This document shows positions 1 to 31,040 of a DNA stretch of 64,000 nucleotides, piece after piece (position 1 is the stretch's first letter; every line of letters begins with the position of its first letter). Location of the stretch: the NCBI RefSeq assembly GCF_007859765.1, contig NZ_SIHJ01000001.1:2109311-2173310 (forward strand). The letters run 5' to 3'. Source of the stretch: Posidoniimonas corsicana. Lineage in GTDB: Bacteria; Planctomycetota; Planctomycetia; Pirellulales; Lacipirellulaceae. The notes beneath the pieces are model-generated. The model was given only the letters and a program-made list of their open reading frames with translations, ran no database searches and had not been told where the DNA came from. Position numbers and translations under genes: made by a program.

Positions 1-3000
1 CCTCCAACTGTGGGGCGCGGTCGGCAAACTCGATCGCGATCTCACGAAGCCCACCTGACAGCACCCGCACCCTGGCCGCGACGTCGTGCTGAACGCCGCT
101 CTCGGTGCGCTGGTGGGTGGTCAGATGACTCACCTTGTAGCGGGTGGCGCCGGCCCGGATCGCCACGCGGGGCGGCGGCTGCTGCGCCGGCAGCTGAAAC
201 GTGCCGACCAGCATCTCGCGCTGCGCGGCCGCCGAAGCGTTGGAGTCATCCAAGGCCGGGGCATTCTCTTCGGCGAATCGCACCACGCAATCGGGCAGAC
301 GCCACAGCTCGACCCGCAGTGGGTCCGGCGTTCCAGTCGCCGCGCGCAGCACCGGCAGCGGTGTCGAGCGCCCGCTGGGCACGGACACCCTGCCGTAGAG
401 CTCCACCACCGATCCGGCCCCGAGCATCGCGTCCGCTGGTCGGAACACCACCACTCGGGAAGGCTGAGGCCGGGTTGCGCGCAGCGGTTGTGATCGTCCG
501 CCGGCCGTCAGCCGGCAGTCGATCAGCTCGAACGAAGTCGGCACACTGACCTCGAGCTTGCCGAGGGGCCATCCGGCGGGGTTGGCGCCAACCGTCAGCC
601 GCGCGGTCGACGCGGCCTGCCCAAGGACGAGCCTTAGCCGCTGATCGAGCGGGCCCGGCTCGACCGGCCGCATGTCCGACTGGACCTGCCAAAGAGCCAG
701 TGGGTCGGTCGCCGCCACCGCTCGATCGGGTGGCGATTCGGTCTCGTCGAGGGTCCACCGCGCGGCGAACTCCGCTGGGTCGAACGCGGCGACTCCTTCG
801 GTCGCTGGGGTCGTCACGACTAACTCGCGGCTGGAGGAAACCGCCATCATCCGCGATCGCAGATCAACTCCCGGCGGTGGCAGGGACGGGACCGAGAACC
901 GGCCCAGGCCGCCTCGCGGCAGCTCGACTGTGCCGGTGTAAACCAGTTGGGTCAGGCCGGGCTGCCACTCCGTCCGGGGCGACAGCTCGACTCGCCGCTG
1001 CGCGGTTTGGTCGGGGTCAGCCATCGGGAGGGTCGCCTGCAGAAGCTTCGGCAGCGGCGCCGTTCCCTCCAGCAGGCACCGCACTTCGAGCACCGCCCCG
1101 CCCGGCCGGAGGCTTAGCCACTGCAGTTGGTCGCACGCGAGCAGCTTGGCGGCGGCGTTCTTGCTTCCCGTTCCCCAACGCAGGAGCAATTCGTCAGTCC
1201 CCGAGAGGTCGGCCCGCAGCGCGCCCCCCGGCTCGATTGACTGCAGCGGCGTTGGCAGCTCCGGCGCTCGCACGTCGACGCTCGCGTCCGGAACCGACAG
1301 CCGCAACTCTGACAGGCTGCAACGCGGCAGGGCCAGACGCAGCACCGCCCCCGCGTCCTCCTCGCTCACGCTCGGGGTCAGCGAGAGCGTGACCCGGTGT
1401 GGGCCGGGCTCTGCGATAGTGACTGCGCAACCGTCGCCGTTGTCCCGCCACTCGAGCGGTGTGGCGATGCCGTCGATGTTGGCCTTTTCTCCCCACTTGG
1501 CTTCCGCCTGGCGGATCGCAAGCGGGAGCGGCGTGTCCCGGCGGCTGGTCCACACCTCGAGCGACAGCGTCCACGGATCAGCGTTCACGCCTTCGCCGGC
1601 CGTCAGCCCCTTGAGCGCCCCCTGGATCGAAATACGCTTCAACACCCACGCCGCGGGCGCCGCCGTGCGACCCCCGTCGGCGAGCTTGTTGAGCTGGTTG
1701 AGGAAGCCGCCTCGGAGGTACCACTTGTCGCCCTCCGGATTCCCGTCGGCGTCAACGGGGACGATCACCGTTTCGAGCGGCGGTTCTGCCACGGGCTGCG
1801 CCGCGACGGTTGGAGCGAAGGCGAGCAGGGCGAGGGCGGCGGAGGTCGGCGTTGCCGGCAGGGAAAACGAAGCCGCGTCTCGCATGGCCCGGAGCAATCC
1901 CGTCGACGCTTTCACGAGCGGGCAGAGCATCGCGCCCGCGACCAGCCCCAGCCACACCGCAGCGCCCCACACCGCTAGGGCGCCGGGCAGCAGCAACGCT
2001 AGAACCATCGCGGCCAGCGCGGCGGTGACCAGCGTGCGGGTCGCGTAGGGCCACCACCACGCGGATAGGCAAGCGATCAGCACACCGAGCGTCGCGGCGC
2101 CGCCCACAAGCTGGTCATGGTGGATAACCTTCAGCGCGGGCGCCGATGATCCGATGCACGCCACGTCGTAGCAGCGCCAGCCGGGCGGGCAGTCGGCAGC
2201 GCTGAACGCGTTGCCCTCTTCAGCTGGGGCGGTTGGCCACCAGGTTGCCGGATCGAACGGATCAAAGATGCCCGCCGGCAGCACGCTCGCGACCGGCCCG
2301 AGCAGGCGGTTGCGGTTGCTGGTTGGCTCGGGTCCGGCGTCCAACGACGGGCCGGACAACTCGTAAGAGCTGGGCAGCAGGAACCGCCAATTCCAGAACC
2401 CGGTGGCGTCTTCCACAACGCCGTCGAGCGGCAGCGGCGCGCCGGGCGCCCACTTCCGATTCGCGTCCTCGACCGCGATGTCGATCGTGCGAGTCGAATC
2501 GGCCGCGGGGAAGAGGAGCCGGTCGCGGTCCGCGTTGCGGTCTTCCTCGATTGGGAGTCCAAGTGTGTCCCGTGCGCTGAGCAGATTGGCGTTCTTCGGC
2601 AGCAGCAGGGAGCATGGCTGGGCCGCAGGGCGTACCCGGTAGGACAGCAGGTGAACCAGCCGCCCGGAGTCGAGCGCGCGGGTCTCGACGCGGAGGAGAC
2701 GCAGCGGCGGGTCTACCGGGCGACGCGACTGCCGAGTGAGCAGCGCTGAGAGGTCTTGGGCGCCGACACGCTCGGGGTCGTAGGCGAACGTCTTCTGATC
2801 GACATGAGCGGCCGTGTCGGCGTCCTGCGGCAGCGGGGTCAGCCCATTGCTGCGCAGCCCAGCGACGCCCGCCCCGGCGCCCACCAGGGTGAGCCGCCCC
2901 TGCTGGTCGCGTTCCCGCGTCAGCGACGGCAACGGGATGTCCAGCGGCGCCTGGTCTTGCGACGCGAAGGCGATCCGGAAGGTGGTGGTCGGCTGCCCGT

Positions 3001-5005
3001 CCAGCTTCAACGCGATGGCGCCGGACTGGTTGGGCAGCGAGTCGTCGCGTGGCGGCATCGGCGCCCGCTCGCCTAGGAGCAGCTCGGCCGACTCGGGCAG
3101 CGGCGGCTCAAATCGCACTAGTGCGATGCTGCTGGCGCCGTTGGCGGGGATTGTCAGGTCGGCCTGGTAGAGCCAGAGATCGCCCGAGTGCGAGACCCGA
3201 ACGTCGCAGCGGCTCAGGCGGCGGGCCGGTTCGCTCACCAGCTCCAACTCGCCGCCCGCCAGCAGCTGCGCTAATGGGATCTGCTGGGTCTTGAACAGCA
3301 GCGGCGCGTCCTCTTGGTCCTCGGGCGGCGGCGTCGGTTGCGGCGCGGAACGCAGCTGCACCTGCAGCGGCTCTGCCGCCGAGAGCTCGATCTGGTCGCT
3401 CACGACCCGGACACCACTCGGGTCGATCGCCAGCATCTCCGTGAGCGGCGTGCGGTCGCCGCGGAGGTAGCTGCGACGCGCCAGCGTCAGGGTGAGCGCC
3501 GGCGGCTGCTCGGCGAACGCGCCCGGCACCAGGCGGATGTCGATGTTCTTGGGGCCACGGTTCTCGTAGATATCCCACCGTTCGAGTGCCTCGGCGGGTT
3601 CGGCTTCGACTGCACGGACCGCCCAGCTGTCGCCGAGCGCGACACGCAGCCGCCGCAACGCGTGCTGACGGTCGCCGGCGAACTGGATCGTCACGGTCGA
3701 GTTGGCTAGGTGCAGGTCTCGCTGCCGGTCGATCCCGAGTTGGACGGAACGTGTCACGTTCACGGCGGGCGTTGCGACCCGGCGGCCGACCTGCAGCTGA
3801 ACCGACGCCTCGGGCCGGGAGAGGCGGAAGAACAGCTCCGCGCTTTCCTCTGCCGACGACGGCGCGGCGGCCGGAGTCGCGTAAGAGAGTTGAGCGATGT
3901 CCATCAGCGAGACCGGCTCCTCGAAGGCCACCGAGACGGCTCCCTCGGTCCAGCGGGCGTTGAGCAGCACGGGGGACGGGAGTGTGATCTGTCCGGACGC
4001 CTCGGGCGAGAGCAGCCACAGCTCGAGCAGGCAATCACCCTGCGGCGCCCGCGTGAGCGTGACGCGCGCGGTCGTTCCGCCCTCCTCTTCACTGAGGGTC
4101 CACTCCACCGGCAGCCCGTCCTGCGTTGCGCGGATCAGCCTGGCGCCGATTGGCAACGCGACCCGCACTGCGCCGGGCAGCGGCCGCGCCGAGCTGAGGC
4201 GGAACCGGCACTGGGTCTCGACCCCCGACTCGCGGATTGCGTGCCGCAGGTCCTGCGCCACGTCGATAGTCGCACGGGTGGTCGTGGGACGCGGACGCGA
4301 GAGCACCAGCCGGCCCGATGCGCCGGGCGCAACCTCGATCCGCCAGCGGGCCTGGCCTGCCCCCGGCGGCGCGGGCGTTGATGCGTCGCCGCCGGGCTCT
4401 TCCTCACGCACAATCGCGCGACTCATGCTGGGGGTCGTCCCCACCGGCAGGTCGAGTGCGAGGGTAGTGGTTGTCGCCGGCGGCAACCCAATCTGGTACT
4501 CCGACCGCGTATCGGAGACGCTTGCCGGCCGGCCTTCGAGCTCGAACCGGAGGTCGCCGCTGCGGTCGACCAGCACGCCGTGCGGCGCTGCTGGCGGCGG
4601 GCCCCAGTCGCCGAGCAACGCCGGCTCACCGCTTGGCGACCACGCGATTGAGGTGACCCTGGTCGCGCTGGCGGGCCAGGCGAGGAACGCCTCCGCGGCG
4701 CCGTTGAGGTCGACGCGTGCCTCGCCGGCGCCCGAGAGCACCGATCCGGTCAGACCGAGGTGCGCGCGGACGCTGTAAGCCGAGAACTGGTGCGAGGCCA
4801 TCGCGTCCGGCTCGCCCAGTCGCAGCAGCCGGAGCGCCTCCAACTGCGCGACCGGAACCCACGGTTCACCAGTCTTGGGCCACGCCTCGGGCTGATTGGC
4901 GGGGGCGAAGACCCGGCGGTACGGCGCTTCGGCGGGCTGTTCGGCGCCGGTGCCCGCAGCGCTAAGCGCGAACAGCAGTATCAGGGGTAAGGAGGTCGGA
5001 CGCAT
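1..5005 (-). CDS. Giant secreted/membrane protein, unknown function (3' end beyond the window)
   Basis: The frame is open from an ATG at 5005 to the window edge, giving more than 1,660 residues with no stop, so the C-terminus is missing. I do not recognise the family. An N-terminal signal peptide (about residues 1-21, ending near SAAGTGA) is followed by about 940 residues of beta-rich, Ala/Leu/Arg-rich sequence. A cluster of membrane segments lies near residues 963-1030, and a second signal-like stretch near 1043-1068 ends in a VAAQP-type site. A new module then begins near residue 1078 with VIVPVDADGNP. The gene starts 12 bp after the stop of the 1141-residue gene upstream, so the two are surely co-transcribed. 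Their shared layout (signal peptide, long beta-rich region, membrane cluster) suggests paralogy. The role is inferred only as envelope-associated. Confidence 0.85.
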   Translation of the reverse strand, partial: MRPTSLPLILLFALSAAGTGAEQPAEAPYRRVFAPANQPEAWPKTGEPWVPVAQLEALRLLRLGEPDAMASHQFSAYSVRAHLGLTGSVLSGAGEARVDLNGAAEAFLAWPASATRVTSIAWSPSGEPALLGDWGPPPAAPHGVLVDRSGDLRFELEGRPASVSDTRSEYQIGLPPATTTTLALDLPVGTTPSMSRAIVREEEPGGDASTPAPPGAGQARWRIEVAPGASGRLVLSRPRPTTTRATIDVAQDLRHAIRESGVETQCRFRLSSARPLPGAVRVALPIGARLIRATQDGLPVEWTLSEEEGGTTARVTLTRAPQGDCLLELWLLSPEASGQITLPSPVLLNARWTEGAVSVAFEEPVSLMDIAQLSYATPAAAPSSAEESAELFFRLSRPEASVQLQVGRRVATPAVNVTRSVQLGIDRQRDLHLANSTVTIQFAGDRQHALRRLRVALGDSWAVRAVEAEPAEALERWDIYENRGPKNIDIRLVPGAFAEQPPALTLTLARRSYLRGDRTPLTEMLAIDPSGVRVVSDQIELSAAEPLQVQLRSAPQPTPPPEDQEDAPLLFKTQQIPLAQLLAGGELELVSEPARRLSRCDVRVSHSGDLWLYQADLTIPANGASSIALVRFEPPLPESAELLLGERAPMPPRDDSLPNQSGAIALKLDGQPTTTFRIAFASQDQAPLDIPLPSLTRERDQQGRLTLVGAGAGVAGLRSNGLTPLPQDADTAAHVDQKTFAYDPERVGAQDLSALLTRQSRRPVDPPLRLLRVETRALDSGRLVHLLSYRVRPAAQPCSLLLPKNANLLSARDTLGLPIEEDRNADRDRLLFPAADSTRTIDIAVEDANRKWAPGAPLPLDGVVEDATGFWNWRFLLPSSYELSGPSLDAGPEPTSNRNRLLGPVASVLPAGIFDPFDPATWWPTAPAEEGNAFSAADCPPGWRCYDVACIGSSAPALKVIHHDQLVGGAATLGVLIACLSAWWWPYATRTLVTAALAAMVLALLLPGALAVWGAAVWLGLVAGAMLCPLVKASTGLLRAMRDAASFSLPATPTSAALALLAFAPTVAAQPVAEPPLETVIVPVDADGNPEGDKWYLRGGFLNQLNKLADGGRTAAPAAWVLKRISIQGALKGLTAGEGVNADPWTLSLEVWTSRRDTPLPLAIRQAEAKWGEKANIDGIATPLEWRDNGDGCAVTIAEPGPHRVTLSLTPSVSEEDAGAVLRLALPRCSLSELRLSVPDASVDVRAPELPTPLQSIEPGGALRADLSGTDELLLRWGTGSKNAAAKLLACDQLQWLSLRPGGAVLEVRCLLEGTAPLPKLLQATLPMADPDQTAQRRVELSPRTEWQPGLTQLVYTGTVELPRGGLGRFSVPSLPPPGVDLRSRMMAVSSSRELVVTTPATEGVAAFDPAEFAARWTLDETESPPDRAVAATDPLALWQVQSDMRPVEPGPLDQRLRLVLGQAASTARLTVGANPAGWPLGKLEVSVPTSFELIDCRLTAGGRSQPLRATRPQPSRVVVFRPADAMLGAGSVVELYGRVSVPSGRSTPLPVLRAATGTPDPLRVELWRLPDCVVRFAEENAPALDDSNASAAAQREMLVGTFQLPAQQPPPRVAIRAGATRYKVSHLTTHQRTESGVQHDVAARVRVLSGGLREIAIEFADRAPQLE

Positions 5006-5017
5006 TTCAAGAGGCGG

Positions 5018-8000
5018 TCAGGGCAGCGGGTTCGACACCTCAAGCGACACGGTCGGCGCGTTGGTTGAGACCGTGCCCCCGCCAACGTTGAGGTGGCCGT
5101 CCTGGTTCGTCGACGCGTGGCGGATCGACGTCGAGTCGTCGGAGAGGGTTACCAGCGTCTTCTTGCCGGGCGACAGGGTCAGCATCGCGACCCAGCCGGC
5201 GAACAACGCCACCAGGCCGATCGCCCCGGCCTGCGCCGCCATGGCGAGGTCGGCCGGCCGCCAGTAGCCAAAGAGCAGTATCAGCACGCACAAGAGCCCG
5301 ATTGCTACGTGGCGGACCCGCGGCGGGGAGTAGCCGATCACCAGGCCGATGGCCATCGCCAGCAGCGATGTCGCCAGCACAGCGATCTTCTGATCGATAG
5401 TTGTCACCCGCCAGGTCCCTTCAGGGAGGGCTAGCGCGGAGTAAAGGTACGCCCGCTCGCCGGCGTCGAGCGGCAGGTCTTGGTGGGTAGCGCCCACCCA
5501 CGACTCGAGCTGCGCGGAGTCCTTGACTGGGAGCCGGCGGAACCGGCCCTGCCGCCAGCCCGCGCGCCACGCCGGGCGGAGACCCTCGGGCGCCGAGAGC
5601 ATCCAGAGGTCGCTCGGCAGCACCACCTGCCAGTAGCACATGGCCTGCGAGGTGTCGGCCTGAATCTGCAGCGGGCGGAGGGTCATCTGACCACCGGACT
5701 CGCCGGACAGGGCCTCCACCCGGCGGGCCTCAACGGTGTGCTCGCCCGCCCCATCCTGCGGCAGCGGCACCCGCAGCGTGCGGGTGTCGAACGGCTCCGG
5801 CCGCACCGGCTGGCCATCAACCTGCACCACGATCGACTGCGGAGTCACGCTGGGCGGAGCCGTTAGCAGGACTTCTGGTTTGCCGGCCAGCACCCGCCAC
5901 GCGGAGCGTTGCTGAAGCGTCGCGCCGCGTCGCCAGCTCTGCCGCCACACGCGGGTGACCACGGTCGGCGTCTCAATCACTCGGCGGGGCGGAACGCGGG
6001 TCAGCCGCATTGCGCCCGCGCTGTTTGACCCCACCACGCGCAGCACACCCTCGCTCGATTCCTGCGTCTGCCAGGCGTCGGCCTCGTCGTCGACGCGGAG
6101 CGTCAGGGCGTCGGGCGACTCGATGGTGGCGTCGTGCTCGAAGGAACCTACCCCCGTGGGCGCCATTAGCGGTACGGACAGCGACCCCTGCTCGTCCGCC
6201 AGCTCGTCGGCGCCCGACGGCAGCCTGAAGCCCGCGACAAGGTTCAGAGCGCCGCTCCAGGGACGCGGCAGCTCCACCACGACACGCCGGCCGCCCGCCT
6301 GCAGCCGCCACTCAAGCTGCTCGCGGACGGTGGTGACCCGCGCGTCGTTGACCGACGGCGCGTCGGTCAGCAGGTAGAACGCCAGGTCGGTCCCATCGGT
6401 TATCGCGGGCGGCGCGTCGAACTCGATCCGCTCGCGGGGCTGCTTGCGGACCTCGAGGTAGAAGCTCTGCTCGACCGAGGTCTGGTCCTCGGCGATGGTC
6501 ACGCGGGCCCCCGCGGCGTTGGCGTGCAGCTCGCCGGCGCGGCGGGTGAGCACGCCGTACAGCCGCACAGCGCGGCCGGGGAGCTGGGCGTAGGCGTCGT
6601 CGCGGAAGCGGAACGTCTGCTGCGCCGTCGGCTCGCCGTCGGCGGCGGACGAAGGCGCCGGCTCGAGCATCTCGAACGTGCGAGGGTCGATGGTCAGCCA
6701 CAGGCTGGGGTCGACGGTGATCAGCAGGTCGCGGCGGTCGAGCGCGTAGGACGCCGGCTGGCGGGGCTGCGGCAGCACGACCTCGAAGGGATCGCCGTCG
6801 GGCGTCAGCGCGTAGCTGCGGGCGTGGAAGCCGACCGTGACGTTCCCCAGCCGCGGACGCAGCAACGCGAAGTCGAAGGTGCCGTCGTCGTCCTGCCCGA
6901 GCGAAGTGGCGTCGACCAGCTCGGCCGGTTCGATCGGGTCGGACGAGAGGGTCCAGCCGTTCAGGTCGAAGCCGAAGTCGAGGATCGGCGCGCCGATGAT
7001 CTGGTAGCGGGACGACACGTGCAGCAACGCCACGTCGGGCAGGATCTCGAGGTGGTAGCTGGGCGCCGCCTGGATGCGTGTCTCGCGTTGTCGCACCTCC
7101 ACCGGGATGCTGCCCTGGGGGCGGAAGCAGCGGACCGCGTAGTTCGGCTGTGGCGTCGCGAGCGAGGCGGGCAGATCCTCGACCGCGACCCGACGGGCGC
7201 CCCGCAGGTCGAACCATCTCAGACGCGTGTCCTCGTCAACGATGACGGCGTGGTAGCCTTCCTGGCGGACCGCGCCCAGCACCTCGAAACCCGCCAAATC
7301 GACACGCGACTGATTCGGCGGCTCGCTCCCCACGGCGCTGCCGATGGCCCGCTCGGTGGCGATCTCCACCGTCACGGGGCCGACCGTCCGCTCGGAGAGG
7401 AGCACCGTGCAGGTTCGCCCGTCAGCGCTCGGCTCGACACGCACGCCGTTGTCGGCGGCCGACTCAACCGGGATCCGCTTTGCGCCGGCGGGCAGGCGGA
7501 CCTGGAACCGATCGAACTCGCCGCCGAAGCTCCGCACCCGCAGCACCGCGGTCGACTTCACGCCTCCGCTGTCGATCGTGCTGGTGATCTCGCCTTCGGC
7601 GTCGAGCACCGTTTGCGCCGCGACCCGCGTCTGGTCCGGGCTGCGCCACCGCAGCCGCAGCGGGCCCACGCCCCCGGTGACCGACAGGCGGGCGCCCTCC
7701 TCCGCTTGGTCGACCTCCAGCAGCGCGCCCTCGATGGGCGCCACGTCGGTCGCCCTGCCTGAGAGTTGCAGCTGCAGCTTGGAGAGGATGGCGCGCGGCA
7801 GCGAGAGCGAGAGTTCGTTCGCTTGGCCCGACGTCCGGATCGGCGTCAGCAGGGAGAGCCCGATAGTGCGCGGCCCCTTGCCGGAGAGTGTCACGGCGTA
7901 AGCCTCGGCCTGGTCGGAGTAGCCGAACGCGTCGGTCGGCTGCAGGCCCGTGGGCTTCTTGTCGAGGACCGCGCCGCCGAACCCGATGGGCGCTTCGACC

Positions 8001-8443
8001 GGTTGGTCGGACAGCAGCTCCAGTTCAATGGTAACGTCGAATGCCGCGTGCCCGTTCTCCTGCCGCCCGCGGACGTCGACTTCGTTAAGTGTGAACCGCG
8101 GGCTCGCGGCCGCGGGGTCGCTCCCCTGGTAGGCCCGCCACGCCTTGGCGAACTCGTCGTAGGTCACGCCCACCACCGGGCGGGGCACGCCCGCGTCGTC
8201 GATCCAGATGGTGGTGTCGGGGCCGGCGGGCGCGGGCACCTTGGGCGGCGCGCTAGCGCCATCTTTCGGCGTTGGCGGCGGGGCGACCGGCGGCGGCGTT
8301 GCGGCGGTCGGGGCGGCTGGCTCGGCAACTGATTGAGCAGGCGCCGCTTGTCCGCCTAGCGTAGCCAGCAACGCCAGCGCGCAGCCGACCAGCCGCCACG
8401 ATCGGCGGATGGTGCGCGGCGGGCTCGTGGCGTCACTGGGCAT
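5018..8443 (-). CDS. Large secreted/membrane protein (1141 aa), unknown function
   Basis: The protein opens with Arg-rich residues and a hydrophobic stretch (VGCALALLATLGGQAAPAQ) typical of a Sec signal peptide. A Pro/Ala linker to about residue 65 precedes a long extracytoplasmic region predicted from its composition to be beta-rich. Three hydrophobic segments near residues 1015-1090 (LLAMAIGLVIGY, IGLLCVLILLFGYW, AIGLVALFAGWVAML) anchor the C-terminus, and a short polar tail follows. No catalytic motif was recognised. It is the first gene of a two-gene unit with the giant gene ending off the left edge (12-bp gap). No clear Shine-Dalgarno sequence precedes the ATG, which is common here. Planctomycetes carry many such large envelope proteins without known function, and a structural or cell-surface role is only a guess. 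Confidence 0.9.
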   Translation of the reverse strand: MPSDATSPPRTIRRSWRLVGCALALLATLGGQAAPAQSVAEPAAPTAATPPPVAPPPTPKDGASAPPKVPAPAGPDTTIWIDDAGVPRPVVGVTYDEFAKAWRAYQGSDPAAASPRFTLNEVDVRGRQENGHAAFDVTIELELLSDQPVEAPIGFGGAVLDKKPTGLQPTDAFGYSDQAEAYAVTLSGKGPRTIGLSLLTPIRTSGQANELSLSLPRAILSKLQLQLSGRATDVAPIEGALLEVDQAEEGARLSVTGGVGPLRLRWRSPDQTRVAAQTVLDAEGEITSTIDSGGVKSTAVLRVRSFGGEFDRFQVRLPAGAKRIPVESAADNGVRVEPSADGRTCTVLLSERTVGPVTVEIATERAIGSAVGSEPPNQSRVDLAGFEVLGAVRQEGYHAVIVDEDTRLRWFDLRGARRVAVEDLPASLATPQPNYAVRCFRPQGSIPVEVRQRETRIQAAPSYHLEILPDVALLHVSSRYQIIGAPILDFGFDLNGWTLSSDPIEPAELVDATSLGQDDDGTFDFALLRPRLGNVTVGFHARSYALTPDGDPFEVVLPQPRQPASYALDRRDLLITVDPSLWLTIDPRTFEMLEPAPSSAADGEPTAQQTFRFRDDAYAQLPGRAVRLYGVLTRRAGELHANAAGARVTIAEDQTSVEQSFYLEVRKQPRERIEFDAPPAITDGTDLAFYLLTDAPSVNDARVTTVREQLEWRLQAGGRRVVVELPRPWSGALNLVAGFRLPSGADELADEQGSLSVPLMAPTGVGSFEHDATIESPDALTLRVDDEADAWQTQESSEGVLRVVGSNSAGAMRLTRVPPRRVIETPTVVTRVWRQSWRRGATLQQRSAWRVLAGKPEVLLTAPPSVTPQSIVVQVDGQPVRPEPFDTRTLRVPLPQDGAGEHTVEARRVEALSGESGGQMTLRPLQIQADTSQAMCYWQVVLPSDLWMLSAPEGLRPAWRAGWRQGRFRRLPVKDSAQLESWVGATHQDLPLDAGERAYLYSALALPEGTWRVTTIDQKIAVLATSLLAMAIGLVIGYSPPRVRHVAIGLLCVLILLFGYWRPADLAMAAQAGAIGLVALFAGWVAMLTLSPGKKTLVTLSDDSTSIRHASTNQDGHLNVGGGTVSTNAPTVSLEVSNPLP

Positions 8444-8504: not shown

Positions 8505-8541
8505 GGCCACACGCGTGAACGGCGGCCACACGCGTGAACGG
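8505..8541. repeat. Two tandem copies of an 18-bp repeat
   Basis: The 18-mer ggccacacgcgtgaacgg occurs at 8505-8522 and again at 8524-8541, separated by one base. It lies in the 247-bp gap upstream of the divergent-looking but co-oriented minus-strand genes at 5018-8443 and 8691-9482. Its core acgcgt is palindromic, so it could be a pair of protein-binding sites upstream of the 5018-8443 gene, or simple slippage. Nothing else was seen in this gap. Confidence 0.7.
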
Positions 8542-8690: not shown

Positions 8691-9482
8691 CTACCGCGTG
8701 AGCCGCGACACCATCTGCTGGTGGACAGCCGGGCTGCAGGCGGCGGTCAGGTTGGCCTGCCACAGGTCGAACGGCTCGCCCAACGGGCTTGATACGACGC
8801 CACCGGCCTCTTGGATCAGCAGAACGCCGGCCGCCACGTCCCAGGGCCGGATCTGCCGGGCCCAGTAGCCGTCGATCTTGCCGGCCGCCAGCCAGGCCAG
8901 GTTCATCGCAGCCGAGCCGGTGCGGCGGATCGCCCGGCACTGCGGGACCAGGGTTAGGAAGTCGAGCAGGTCGGGCGAGTCGGGCTGCACCTGAGGCGGC
9001 AGGCTCATCGACAGCAATGCGTCGCCCAACTGTCCAGTGCTACTGACTCGCAGCGGCTCTTCGTCGAGCCACGCGCCCTGCCCCGCGGCCGCCCAGTAGT
9101 GGTGCTCGCGTAGCGGGTCGTAGATGCAAGCCGCCACCGGTCGCGACGCCTGCACAGCGGCGATGGAAACCGCAAAGCAGGGGAACTGGTGCAGGTAGTT
9201 CGTGGTGCCGTCGAGCGGATCGACCACCCAGACAACGGCGTCGTCGTCGACGGGTGGGCGGTGGTTGTCGCCCTCCTCGCCCATCAAGAGGTGATCCGGG
9301 AAAGCCGACTGGATGCACTCGAACACTGCTTGTTGAGACGCAATGTCAGCATTGGTGACGAAGTCGTGCCGGCCCTTCTCGGAAACCTCGAACGAGTCCC
9401 GCAGTTCAATCAACCTTTGCCCACCCGCGCGGCCCGCCTGTTTCGCGACTTCAGCCAGCCTGTGTAGAAAGTTTGCGTCCAC
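8691..9482 (-). CDS. Inositol monophosphatase family protein
   Basis: This is a Mg-dependent phosphomonoesterase of the inositol monophosphatase (SuhB/CysQ/HisN-like) superfamily. The 263 residues match the usual length. Metal-binding signatures are intact: GEE at residues 68-70, DPLDGT at 88-93 and WDVAAG at 214-219. The substrate cannot be told from sequence; inositol-1-phosphate, histidinol phosphate or PAP are all possible within the family. The start is the ATG at 9482, which gives the normal N-terminal helix of the fold. It is cytoplasmic, with no signal peptide. The gene stands alone, with a 208-bp gap to the giant-protein pair downstream and a non-coding region with an RNA candidate upstream. 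Confidence 0.95.
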   Translation of the reverse strand: MDANFLHRLAEVAKQAGRAGGQRLIELRDSFEVSEKGRHDFVTNADIASQQAVFECIQSAFPDHLLMGEEGDNHRPPVDDDAVVWVVDPLDGTTNYLHQFPCFAVSIAAVQASRPVAACIYDPLREHHYWAAAGQGAWLDEEPLRVSSTGQLGDALLSMSLPPQVQPDSPDLLDFLTLVPQCRAIRRTGSAAMNLAWLAAGKIDGYWARQIRPWDVAAGVLLIQEAGGVVSSPLGEPFDLWQANLTAACSPAVHQQMVSRLTR

Positions 9483-9715
9483 AATGCACCTGAGGGAATA
9501 AGCCCCAACAGTCGGGGCGAAGGGTGGGTAGCAGGCGGCGGGTGATGACTCGTAAACCGTGCTGTCTTACGGTTTTGAGTAACGCGGCGCCTGCGGCGGG
9601 GAAGCGCCGGTGTGGGCAGAAGCGGCCCTTTCCGTAAACCCTGCCCAGGCGTGAGTTAAGGCCGCTTTTGATCCAGTCTGGCACATTTGGTCAAGGGTTT
9701 GAAGTGACAAAAGTC
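9483..9715. other. Intergenic stretch without a recognised gene
   Basis: This is the left part of the 496-bp gap between the phosphatase gene and the hypothetical gene at 9979. It probably holds the promoter of the minus-strand phosphatase gene, but no clear -35/-10 pair was picked out. No ORF in either strand looks protein-like. The rest of the gap holds the promoter, RNA and terminator listed next. Confidence 0.5.
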
Positions 9716-9743
9716 TGGACACGGCTCCCCGATCTGGTATCAT
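9716..9743 (+). promoter_or_regulatory. Sigma-70-like promoter for the RNA candidate
   Basis: A -35 box tggaca (9716-9721; five of six matches to TTGACA) and a -10 box tatcat (9738-9743) are separated by 16 bp. Transcription would start near 9750, just before the closing stem of the structured RNA. This is seen in the sequence only, and promoter consensus in planctomycetes is poorly known. Confidence 0.45.
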
Positions 9744-9749
9744 TTCAGA

Positions 9750-9899
9750 GGTGAAGAGAGAGGTCGATCCGCACGGATGGACCCCCGCAGATTTGCGGAA
9801 GGCGATTGCCTAATACCTATTATAAGATTGCGTTAGCACTCGGCCTCTTCTCTGTTCCGGCCCCGTCGCAACACCCTCGGGTGTTCGGCGGGGTTTTTT
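9750..9899 (+). ncRNA. Candidate structured small RNA or attenuating leader
   Basis: The roughly 150-nt segment is bounded by a promoter-like sequence and a strong intrinsic terminator and contains no plausible ORF. Positions 9755-9767 can pair with 9840-9853 (13 bp with one bulged T), closing a domain of about 70 nt. Within it, 9785-9798 forms a hairpin (ccgca and tgcgg arms around gatt) and 9801-9810 a smaller one. It does not show the marks of SRP RNA, tmRNA or RNase P RNA. A 6S-like RNA is conceivable from size and the closing stem but cannot be claimed. Because the 9979 gene begins 79 bp after the terminator, it could instead be a riboswitch-like leader of that gene. Confidence 0.45.
9861..9899 (+). 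terminator. Intrinsic terminator, very strong hairpin with T tract
   Basis: The left arm 9861-9876 pairs with the right arm 9879-9894 over about 15 bp, including one G-U pair and one bulged C, around a 2-nt nominal loop. Six Ts follow directly (9894-9899). It is oriented for plus-strand transcription and sits 80 bp upstream of the GTG start at 9979. It therefore ends a short independent RNA or attenuates that gene. Confidence 0.85.
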
Positions 9900-9978
9900 A
9901 TTGCGCATCCAACAACCGCGCGCTCGTCGAAGGCTCGCCCCGCGTGGCCGCTGCGTACCGCGGAGGAGCATCACCAAC

Positions 9979-10641
9979 GTGTGGCAGCTTGGCCAGGACG
10001 AAGCCGTCTTCACCGGCAGCGAACTCTCACTCTCTCTCGCGCCCTCAGACCCTGTCGCCGGTGGTAGGCTCGCGTTCAACGGCGCGGCATCCGTCGCCGA
10101 TCCCCTCTGGTCCTGGGCGCCGGTCGGGCATGTGGCGCCCAAGCTGAGCGAGGCCTACACCCGCGGCGCCGACCTGGTGCTGTTGTACGGACCCGGCGAA
10201 GGCTTTCCCTTCCACACCGACGCGTACTGGCGGTGCGAATCGTCGTCCGACGCGTTGGTTGTCAGCCTGACGCTGTCGGTTCGCACGCACAAGCTCGACA
10301 CGCACCCCGTGTTCGAAGTGGGCTCAACGCTCAACGCGCCCGGGCTAACCGAGTTATCCGACGGCGGGATAGTCGGCCGGCTTGCCGCCGCGGCCGACGG
10401 CGGTTGGTCCCTGATTGAGACCCCCTACCCGGGCGACATGAACCCCTTGCCGCCCTCCCCCGGGACCGACGCCGAGGGCGCGGTCGGCACGCGGTGGCGG
10501 CTGTTCGACCTGTTCATGGAGAAGGGCGTGATCCGCCGCTCGCGGATATCGCTCGCAATCACGCCGAGCGAGCTGACCGCCGACGCCGCGCTGGCGCTCG
10601 CTTGCCGGCTGCGCGCCGAGCCGGTCGCGTTGTCGACCTAG
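9979..10641 (+). CDS. Hypothetical protein (220 aa)
   Basis: I do not recognise this family. The start is set at GTG 9979 because a clear Shine-Dalgarno sequence (ggaggag, 9962-9968) precedes it at good spacing. The longer frame from 9901 would begin inside the terminator and has an Arg-rich, non-protein-like start. The product begins WQLGQDEAVF, shows alternating polar and hydrophobic residues suggesting a beta-rich globular domain, and has no signal peptide or membrane segment. No catalytic motif stands out. Its stop codon interlocks tail-to-tail with the stop of the lipoprotein gene on the other strand (shared CTAG at 10638-10641). Expression may be controlled by the upstream terminator. 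Confidence 0.8.
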   Translation: MWQLGQDEAVFTGSELSLSLAPSDPVAGGRLAFNGAASVADPLWSWAPVGHVAPKLSEAYTRGADLVLLYGPGEGFPFHTDAYWRCESSSDALVVSLTLSVRTHKLDTHPVFEVGSTLNAPGLTELSDGGIVGRLAAAADGGWSLIETPYPGDMNPLPPSPGTDAEGAVGTRWRLFDLFMEKGVIRRSRISLAITPSELTADAALALACRLRAEPVALST

Positions 10642-30131: not shown

Positions 30132-31040
30132 GTGGCGGCCGACGTGCGTATCTCTGTCGTGATCCCAACCTACAACCGCGCGCACCTGCTGCGCGGCTGC
30201 CTGGAGTCCGCGCTCGGTCAGACACGGCCCGCCGATGGGGTGGTGCTGGTGGACGACGGGTCGACCGACGACACCGACGCGGTGGCCGCGGAGTACGGCG
30301 ACCGCATCGTGTACATCCGGCAGGAGAACGCCGGGCCCGGCGCGGCGCGGAACAACGGCGCCGCCCACGCCAGCGGAGACTTCATCGCGTTCCTCGACAG
30401 CGACGACTCCTGGGCGCCATGGACCCTCGAGTACGTCGCGGCGGCGATCAGCGAACACAACCCCCGCCTGCTGCTCCTGACGCCCGACATCCTCGCCGAT
30501 CCGAGCGACTGGCGGTGCGACGACAAGCAGCCCCTCGTGGCGCGTGGATACCCCGACTTCCTGGCCGCCGCGAAGCACGGTCTGTACTGCGGATCCAACG
30601 TGATGGTGGTGCACCGGGAGCGGATGCTGGAGGTCGGCGGGTTCCACCCGTCGCTGAAGTGCGCGGAGGACCAGGTGCTGGTGCTGCGCATGGGGGTCGA
30701 CCCGGGGTTCTGCCAGATCGTGTCGCCCCCGCTGGTCGGCGTGCTGCGGCACGAGGTGAGCCTGATGGAATCGTGCGACGGGATCGTCGGCGGCCTCAAC
30801 TACCTGATCGACGCGGAGCAGAAGGGCGAGTTTCCCGGCGGCGCCGAACGGCGTAGCGACCGCCGCGACTACCTGACGTTCCTTATGCGGGGCCTGACCC
30901 ACCGCCTCATCAAGCAGGGGCACCCACGCGAGGCCCGCCGGCTGTATCGGCGCGTGTTCGGGTGGAACCTCCAGCGGCTCCGCTTCAGGTACCTGCTCGG
31001 TTTGCCCCTGCTGTCGATCCTGCCAGTCAAACGAAAGTGA
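30132..31040 (+). CDS. Glycosyltransferase family 2
   Basis: This is a GT-A fold glycosyltransferase adding sugars to a growing oligosaccharide. The N-terminus has ISVVIPTYNRAHLLRGCLESAL, VVLVDDGSTDDT and QENAGPGAARNNGA; the DxD-like FLDSDDSW binds metal and nucleotide sugar. At 302 residues it is of normal length. The start is GTG 30132, with a purine-rich gggaggggg sequence about 7 bases before it inside the end of the pyruvyl transferase gene. This suggests translational coupling. Donor and acceptor sugars are unknown. Confidence 0.96.
   Translation: MAADVRISVVIPTYNRAHLLRGCLESALGQTRPADGVVLVDDGSTDDTDAVAAEYGDRIVYIRQENAGPGAARNNGAAHASGDFIAFLDSDDSWAPWTLEYVAAAISEHNPRLLLLTPDILADPSDWRCDDKQPLVARGYPDFLAAAKHGLYCGSNVMVVHRERMLEVGGFHPSLKCAEDQVLVLRMGVDPGFCQIVSPPLVGVLRHEVSLMESCDGIVGGLNYLIDAEQKGEFPGGAERRSDRRDYLTFLMRGLTHRLIKQGHPREARRLYRRVFGWNLQRLRFRYLLGLPLLSILPVKRK

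Follow-up and report, generated by a model that had tools for sequence, protein, structure and literature searches.

The window (the whole 64,000-nucleotide stretch of Posidoniimonas corsicana DNA analysed) holds, between a divergent gene of the inositol monophosphatase family and a hypothetical gene, a block at 9716-9899 in which a promoter, a variable stretch, a seed and a terminator follow one another (Table 1). The inositol monophosphatase gene beside this block is syntenic across much of the order. A short direct repeat, CCACACGCGTGAACGG, occurs twice within ~35 bases (8509-8539) between the same gene and the large gene at 5018-8443. An earlier note, made from the sequence alone, had claimed a -35/-10 pair within the block. 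This pair is the sole promoter-like site within 9450-10100, where shuffling gives an expectation of 0.1, and a sigma70-type promoter is found again in relatives 5' of the same RNA, hereafter A. The terminator with a T6 tract that the note described is also present; its predicted fold is a long stem with one bulge, which a simple terminator scan did not pick up. The statement that the block lacks an ORF stands, as no ORF within it looks genuine. In the window, A has a predicted length of ~149 nt, and the whole block has a predicted folding energy of -74.3 kcal/mol (z = -3.1).

Table 1. Coordinates of RNA A, its neighbours and the RNA B locus of the same genome (window positions unless a contig or locus is named).
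Feature	Position	Strand	Remarks
Inositol monophosphatase family gene, divergent neighbour	8691..9482	-	PF00459, 8.8e-63
Sigma70-type promoter of A	9716..9743	+	TGGACA-16 nt-TATCAT, extended -10 (TG before -10)
Variable 5' extension of A	9751..9842	+	~90 nt; start near 9751 predicted from the -10 box
Seed of A, GCCUCUUCUCUGUUCCGG	9843..9860	+	Shared by most A copies across the class; matched by complementary sites in B
Intrinsic terminator of A	9861..9899	+	CCCCGUCG..CGGCGGGG, then T6
Hypothetical gene downstream of A	9979..10641	+	Not a conserved partner of A
B of the window's own genome	Contig C3, ~104,890-105,037 and beyond; L031 ~2754-3039	-	~Four complementary sites

The covariance search proposed in the earlier note was run against Rfam 15 (4227 families) and placed A in no known family, with zero matches at the gathering threshold in the window. 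A relaxed scan of 9600-10000 returned chance-level matches only, and a scan of the related loci yielded a single match, an RNase P RNA lying at one edge of L034. These results agree with the note's view that A is not an SRP, tmRNA or RNase P RNA.

BLAST located the 3' part of A in 56 of 59 close relatives (E <= 0.1), and in most of these copies GCCTCTTCTCTGTTCCGGCCCC is intact, with a GC stem and a T run after it. R1, a 60-position covariance model of the seed and terminator, detected both in 109 of the 198 genomes sampled from the class, usually with an unchanged seed. The carriers belong to the Pirellulales and to Gemmataceae- and Isosphaeraceae-type families, such labels being inferred from matches to named contigs in a GTDB scan. 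Among the matches listed in the exact GTDB scan, nearly all are planctomycetes, including Pirellulaceae, Thermoguttaceae, Gemmataceae and Isosphaera/Singulisphaera/Paludisphaera contigs. When a sample of the phylum was searched with R1, strong matches were confined to the class; by the same model, most genomes in a large family (f21) lack A, as do some Pirellulales.

The alignment for compensatory changes that the earlier note had called for gave a divided answer. The terminator stem covaries: across 44 divergent sequences, 98.3% of the pairing in its eight basal pairs is retained, and each of the four basal pairs that vary shows double-sided changes. The 5' region, however, hardly aligns even inside the window's family. 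Some copies have altered terminators (L261 and L262) and others altered seeds (L252, L256 and L257), which shows that the seed and terminator evolve separately. In L257 and L258 (genomes G432 and G343), the seed is 3 nt shorter (GCCTCTTTGTTCCGG), with promoter and terminator intact; a search for a partner of this shortened seed in the two genomes gave A itself and chance matches only. Some genomes carry two or three copies of A with unrelated 5' parts (L069 and L070; L122 and L103; L154 and L164). A chance promoter and terminator that make no functional RNA would hardly be conserved and covarying in this way, and such an origin is extremely improbable.

For A copies from the window's order, the predicted start usually lies 60-110 nt 5' of the seed. 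A TTGACA/TATAAT promoter directly adjoins the seed in Gemmataceae-type genomes, so A would there be only ~60 nt long with a free seed at its 5' end; in such short forms the seed is predicted to be largely unpaired (mean pairing 0.21). In the longer forms, the 5' end can, by prediction, pair with the seed. The closing stem of 13 bp and the two inner hairpins claimed earlier do appear in the predicted fold. The closing stem is nevertheless weakly supported, because its pairing in the window (0.69) is not above that with a shuffled 5' end (0.73), the gain over 88 long forms is small (0.55 versus 0.47) and the 5' region aligns poorly. It was dropped as a conserved feature, a weak trend at most. 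Within the 5' extension, a block at 9801-9827 (AGGCGATTGCCTAAT..TATYAT; GGCGATTGCCTAAT.. at ~9803-9826) is kept in the window's family and not beyond, and CCCC comes after it in most other members of that family.

Outside A, the strongest antisense match to recur in these genomes is another undescribed RNA, B. Its layout comprises a sigma54 promoter (TTGGCAC-N5-TTGC), one to four sites complementary to the seed, a hairpin whose loop is C-rich, and a terminator. The site CGGGGCCGGAACAGAGAAGAG is complementary to A, and in the window's order a second site, GGGGYCGG-N6-GAAGAGGC, is often added; the CCCC in the 5' arm of the A terminator is also complementary to the GGGG of the B sites. B usually has two sites in the window's order, and in most Gemmataceae-type B there is a single extended site, often carrying a 2-nt gap. 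The anti-seed site lies 37-66 nt 3' of the sigma54 -12 element at 23 B loci, 19 from the window's order and four of the Gemmataceae type. Four of 20 imperfect anti-seed loci tested in other families show this arrangement, as Gemmataceae-type B. Several other loci of the window's order, among them L036, L045, L055 and L056, were rejected as B: they lack a sigma54 promoter at that distance and resemble coding sequence or chance matches. The B loci of the window's order were among weaker BLAST matches to the seed away from A in the same relatives. Sense copies of the A motif were likewise rejected as an explanation of the B loci, since the orientation of the sigma54 promoter and terminator points to the antisense strand as the likely B RNA. 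The terminator and C-rich hairpin of B are kept with compensatory changes in the consensus fold, and much of the B site lies unpaired in loops in single-sequence folds. In the window's own genome, B (L031) sits in a gap with a gene on the same strand on one side and a small opposite-strand frame on the other. At L341 (G301:C65, ~30223-30311, minus strand), a sigma54 promoter and an A-like complementary site stand directly 5' of a thioredoxin-like frame, with no separate RNA gene at this locus.

The earlier note had offered a second reading of the block, an attenuator riboswitch controlling the gene at 9979, and this is very unlikely. Homologues of that gene are syntenic with A at 83 of 193 A loci, but only in part of the order; they flank none of 17 short-form loci, where seed and terminator are still kept, and none of 21 further loci, mostly of Gemmataceae and Isosphaeraceae type. 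The terminator is invariably strong and full, a conserved anti-terminator was not seen in non-exhaustive modelling, and the ~60-nt A of Gemmataceae-type genomes leaves no room for a sensor. Moreover, the conserved partner of A lies in trans. The note's other suggestion, a small RNA of about 150 nt, fared better, given the predicted length, deep conservation, covarying terminator and conserved complementary partner RNA. A has its own promoter and intrinsic terminator and no conserved ORF, as an intrinsically terminated sRNA does, and its conserved seed is complementary to a separate transcript unit, as that of a trans-acting sRNA is. As far as sequence can tell, 9716-9899 is thus a real small-RNA gene rather than an attenuator.

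A and B occur together. R2, a sequence model of B, found matches starting at a sigma54 promoter in 49 genomes, all 49 of which carry A, and the 89 genomes that lack A yielded no R2 match at all (Fisher 5e-16, with relatedness ignored and with anti-A sites contained in R2 by construction). The many R2 matches on the antisense strand of A were left out of the B counts. Further B genes were found by pattern beyond the 49 genomes. B was not seen in every genome with A, and Isosphaeraceae-type genomes with A gave no convincing B by model or pattern.

B carries at least one site complementary to the A seed, as a sponge would. Its best duplex with the 18-nt seed averages -28.8 kcal/mol (range -24 to -38), against shuffle means of -16 to -21; for each of 23 B sequences, at most five of 50 shuffles equalled the duplex energy, and for most none did. 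Because the B loci were first chosen by their match to A, site 1 cannot be counted as evidence. With the first site left out, 21 of 46 B sequences still have a significant second site, most of them from the window's order. A clear compensatory change between the two RNAs was found in one genome only, G372, where the A seed has two changes (ACCUCUUUUC..) and both are compensated in each of two tandem B sites (..AAAAGAGGU). The duplex of this genome's own A and B is 3.4 kcal/mol more stable than that with the canonical seed (-34.7 versus -31.3 kcal/mol). G330 has an A-B match of 22 bp with no mismatch.

Since B carries the complement of the core sequence of A, the two RNAs probably bind and control each other. 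Alternatively, the shared sequence could be a site on A for an RNA-binding protein or RNA polymerase, with B unrelated. The 18-22 identical bases kept across the class, which exceed most base-pairing seeds, would fit such a site; yet B holds the complement rather than the same sequence, several times over, and in G372 it has changed along with A. An account without pairing is therefore improbable.

Hfq was detected in none of the 198 class genomes, although the search controls were found, and A was accordingly rejected as an Hfq-dependent sRNA. RpoN is present in 195 of the 198. B has a -24/-12 promoter (TGGCAC-N5-TTGC) and its hosts have RpoN, the two features sought in a sigma54-dependent RNA. 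On balance, and by a narrow preference, we read A as an Hfq-independent trans-acting sRNA that would be titrated by a sigma54-controlled sponge, B. We infer the transcription of A and B, their pairing in the cell, the direction of control and the action of A on mRNAs from their sequences. A would be made from a housekeeping-type promoter and present an 18-nt pyrimidine-rich seed with the terminator directly after it. Sigma54 and its activator would switch on B, whose seed-complementary sites, shown in loops, would sequester A through a ~20-bp duplex. This duplex would probably lead to RNase III-type decay, and the sequestering of A would free whatever A represses. We lean to the same slight degree towards an ancient Hfq-less circuit of sRNA and sponge, with ~20-bp pairing and sigma54 control, kept in Pirellulales and Gemmataceae-type families with A and B co-evolving.

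The main rival to A as the regulator is the reversed direction, which we consider possible and clearly the less probable of the two. B would then be the main regulator, with a C-rich loop such as UCCCUCCCC covering Shine-Dalgarno sequences, and A, with comparably limited likelihood, a constitutive antisense RNA that silences B until sigma54 makes B in excess. This arrangement would account for the conserved B hairpin with its CUCCC-type loop and covarying stem, for the similar C-rich stretches of Gemmataceae-type B and for the short forms of A, which hold little beyond the anti-B sequence and terminator. It also fits the search for mRNA targets of A, in which none stood out: sites of the one pattern searched, AGAGAAGAGG-N3-10-ATG, numbered 10 outside A versus 7 in the control, which is no excess. 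However, the C-rich loop is absent in some B sequences (L038, L053 and L328). In addition, the A seed is more invariant than the B sites, which suggests that B is not the only partner of A.

Copies of CTCTTC-N6-CCGGCCCC in the window's own genome, with two mismatches allowed, showed no excess over the control. At L340 (G301:C29, ~2248-2267, minus strand), a site GACCGGAACAGAGTGGAGGC lies just 5' of the ATG of a predicted secreted protein, and the mRNA of this gene may be a target of the two A variants that G301 carries.

If the pairing holds, A and B would open a direct way to study how bacteria with no detectable Hfq regulate genes post-transcriptionally, and what role sigma54 plays in planctomycetes. 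A literature search with few subscription journals in its scope found no paper on A. In one review table, the whole PVC group (Planctomycetes, Verrucomicrobia and Chlamydiae) accounts for eight of the sRNAs counted (PMC9029176). The Rhodopirellula-1 motif of Weinberg was graded as probably cis-regulatory (PMC2864571). A is a new, class-wide and near-invariant family; an sRNA with a sponge is an already known kind of molecule, here in an unusual setting.

Some small RNAs with CU-rich seeds cover Shine-Dalgarno sequences. The CCUCUUC of A and the CUCCC of B could likewise pair with purine-rich ribosome-binding sites; unlike those sRNAs, A matches no Rfam family and shows no target excess for the one pattern searched. 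The closest functional parallels are CrcZ and GlmY/GlmZ, which are homologues by no test made. CrcZ and CrcY of Pseudomonas are sigma54- and CbrB-dependent decoy RNAs and, like the proposed B, sigma54-controlled untranslated RNAs that remove a post-transcriptional repressor (PMC8871633). However, CrcZ binds the Crc/Hfq protein complex, whereas B has complementarity to an RNA and comes from genomes in which no Hfq was detected. GlmY and GlmZ of E. coli resemble A and B in that each circuit has two RNAs, one a decoy for the pathway of the other; GlmY, a mimic of GlmZ, competes for the protein RapZ (PMC7073468), whereas A and B have complementary sequences. A sponge of Vibrio cholerae titrates a small RNA through complementary sites, as B would (PMC9732341). 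Base-pairing sponges of Hfq-containing bacteria are described as Hfq-associated (e.g., PMC9732341), whereas Hfq was not detected here. The A-B pairing region, which spans ~18-22 nt and is near-invariant across the class, further sets this pair apart from the Hfq-associated sponges.
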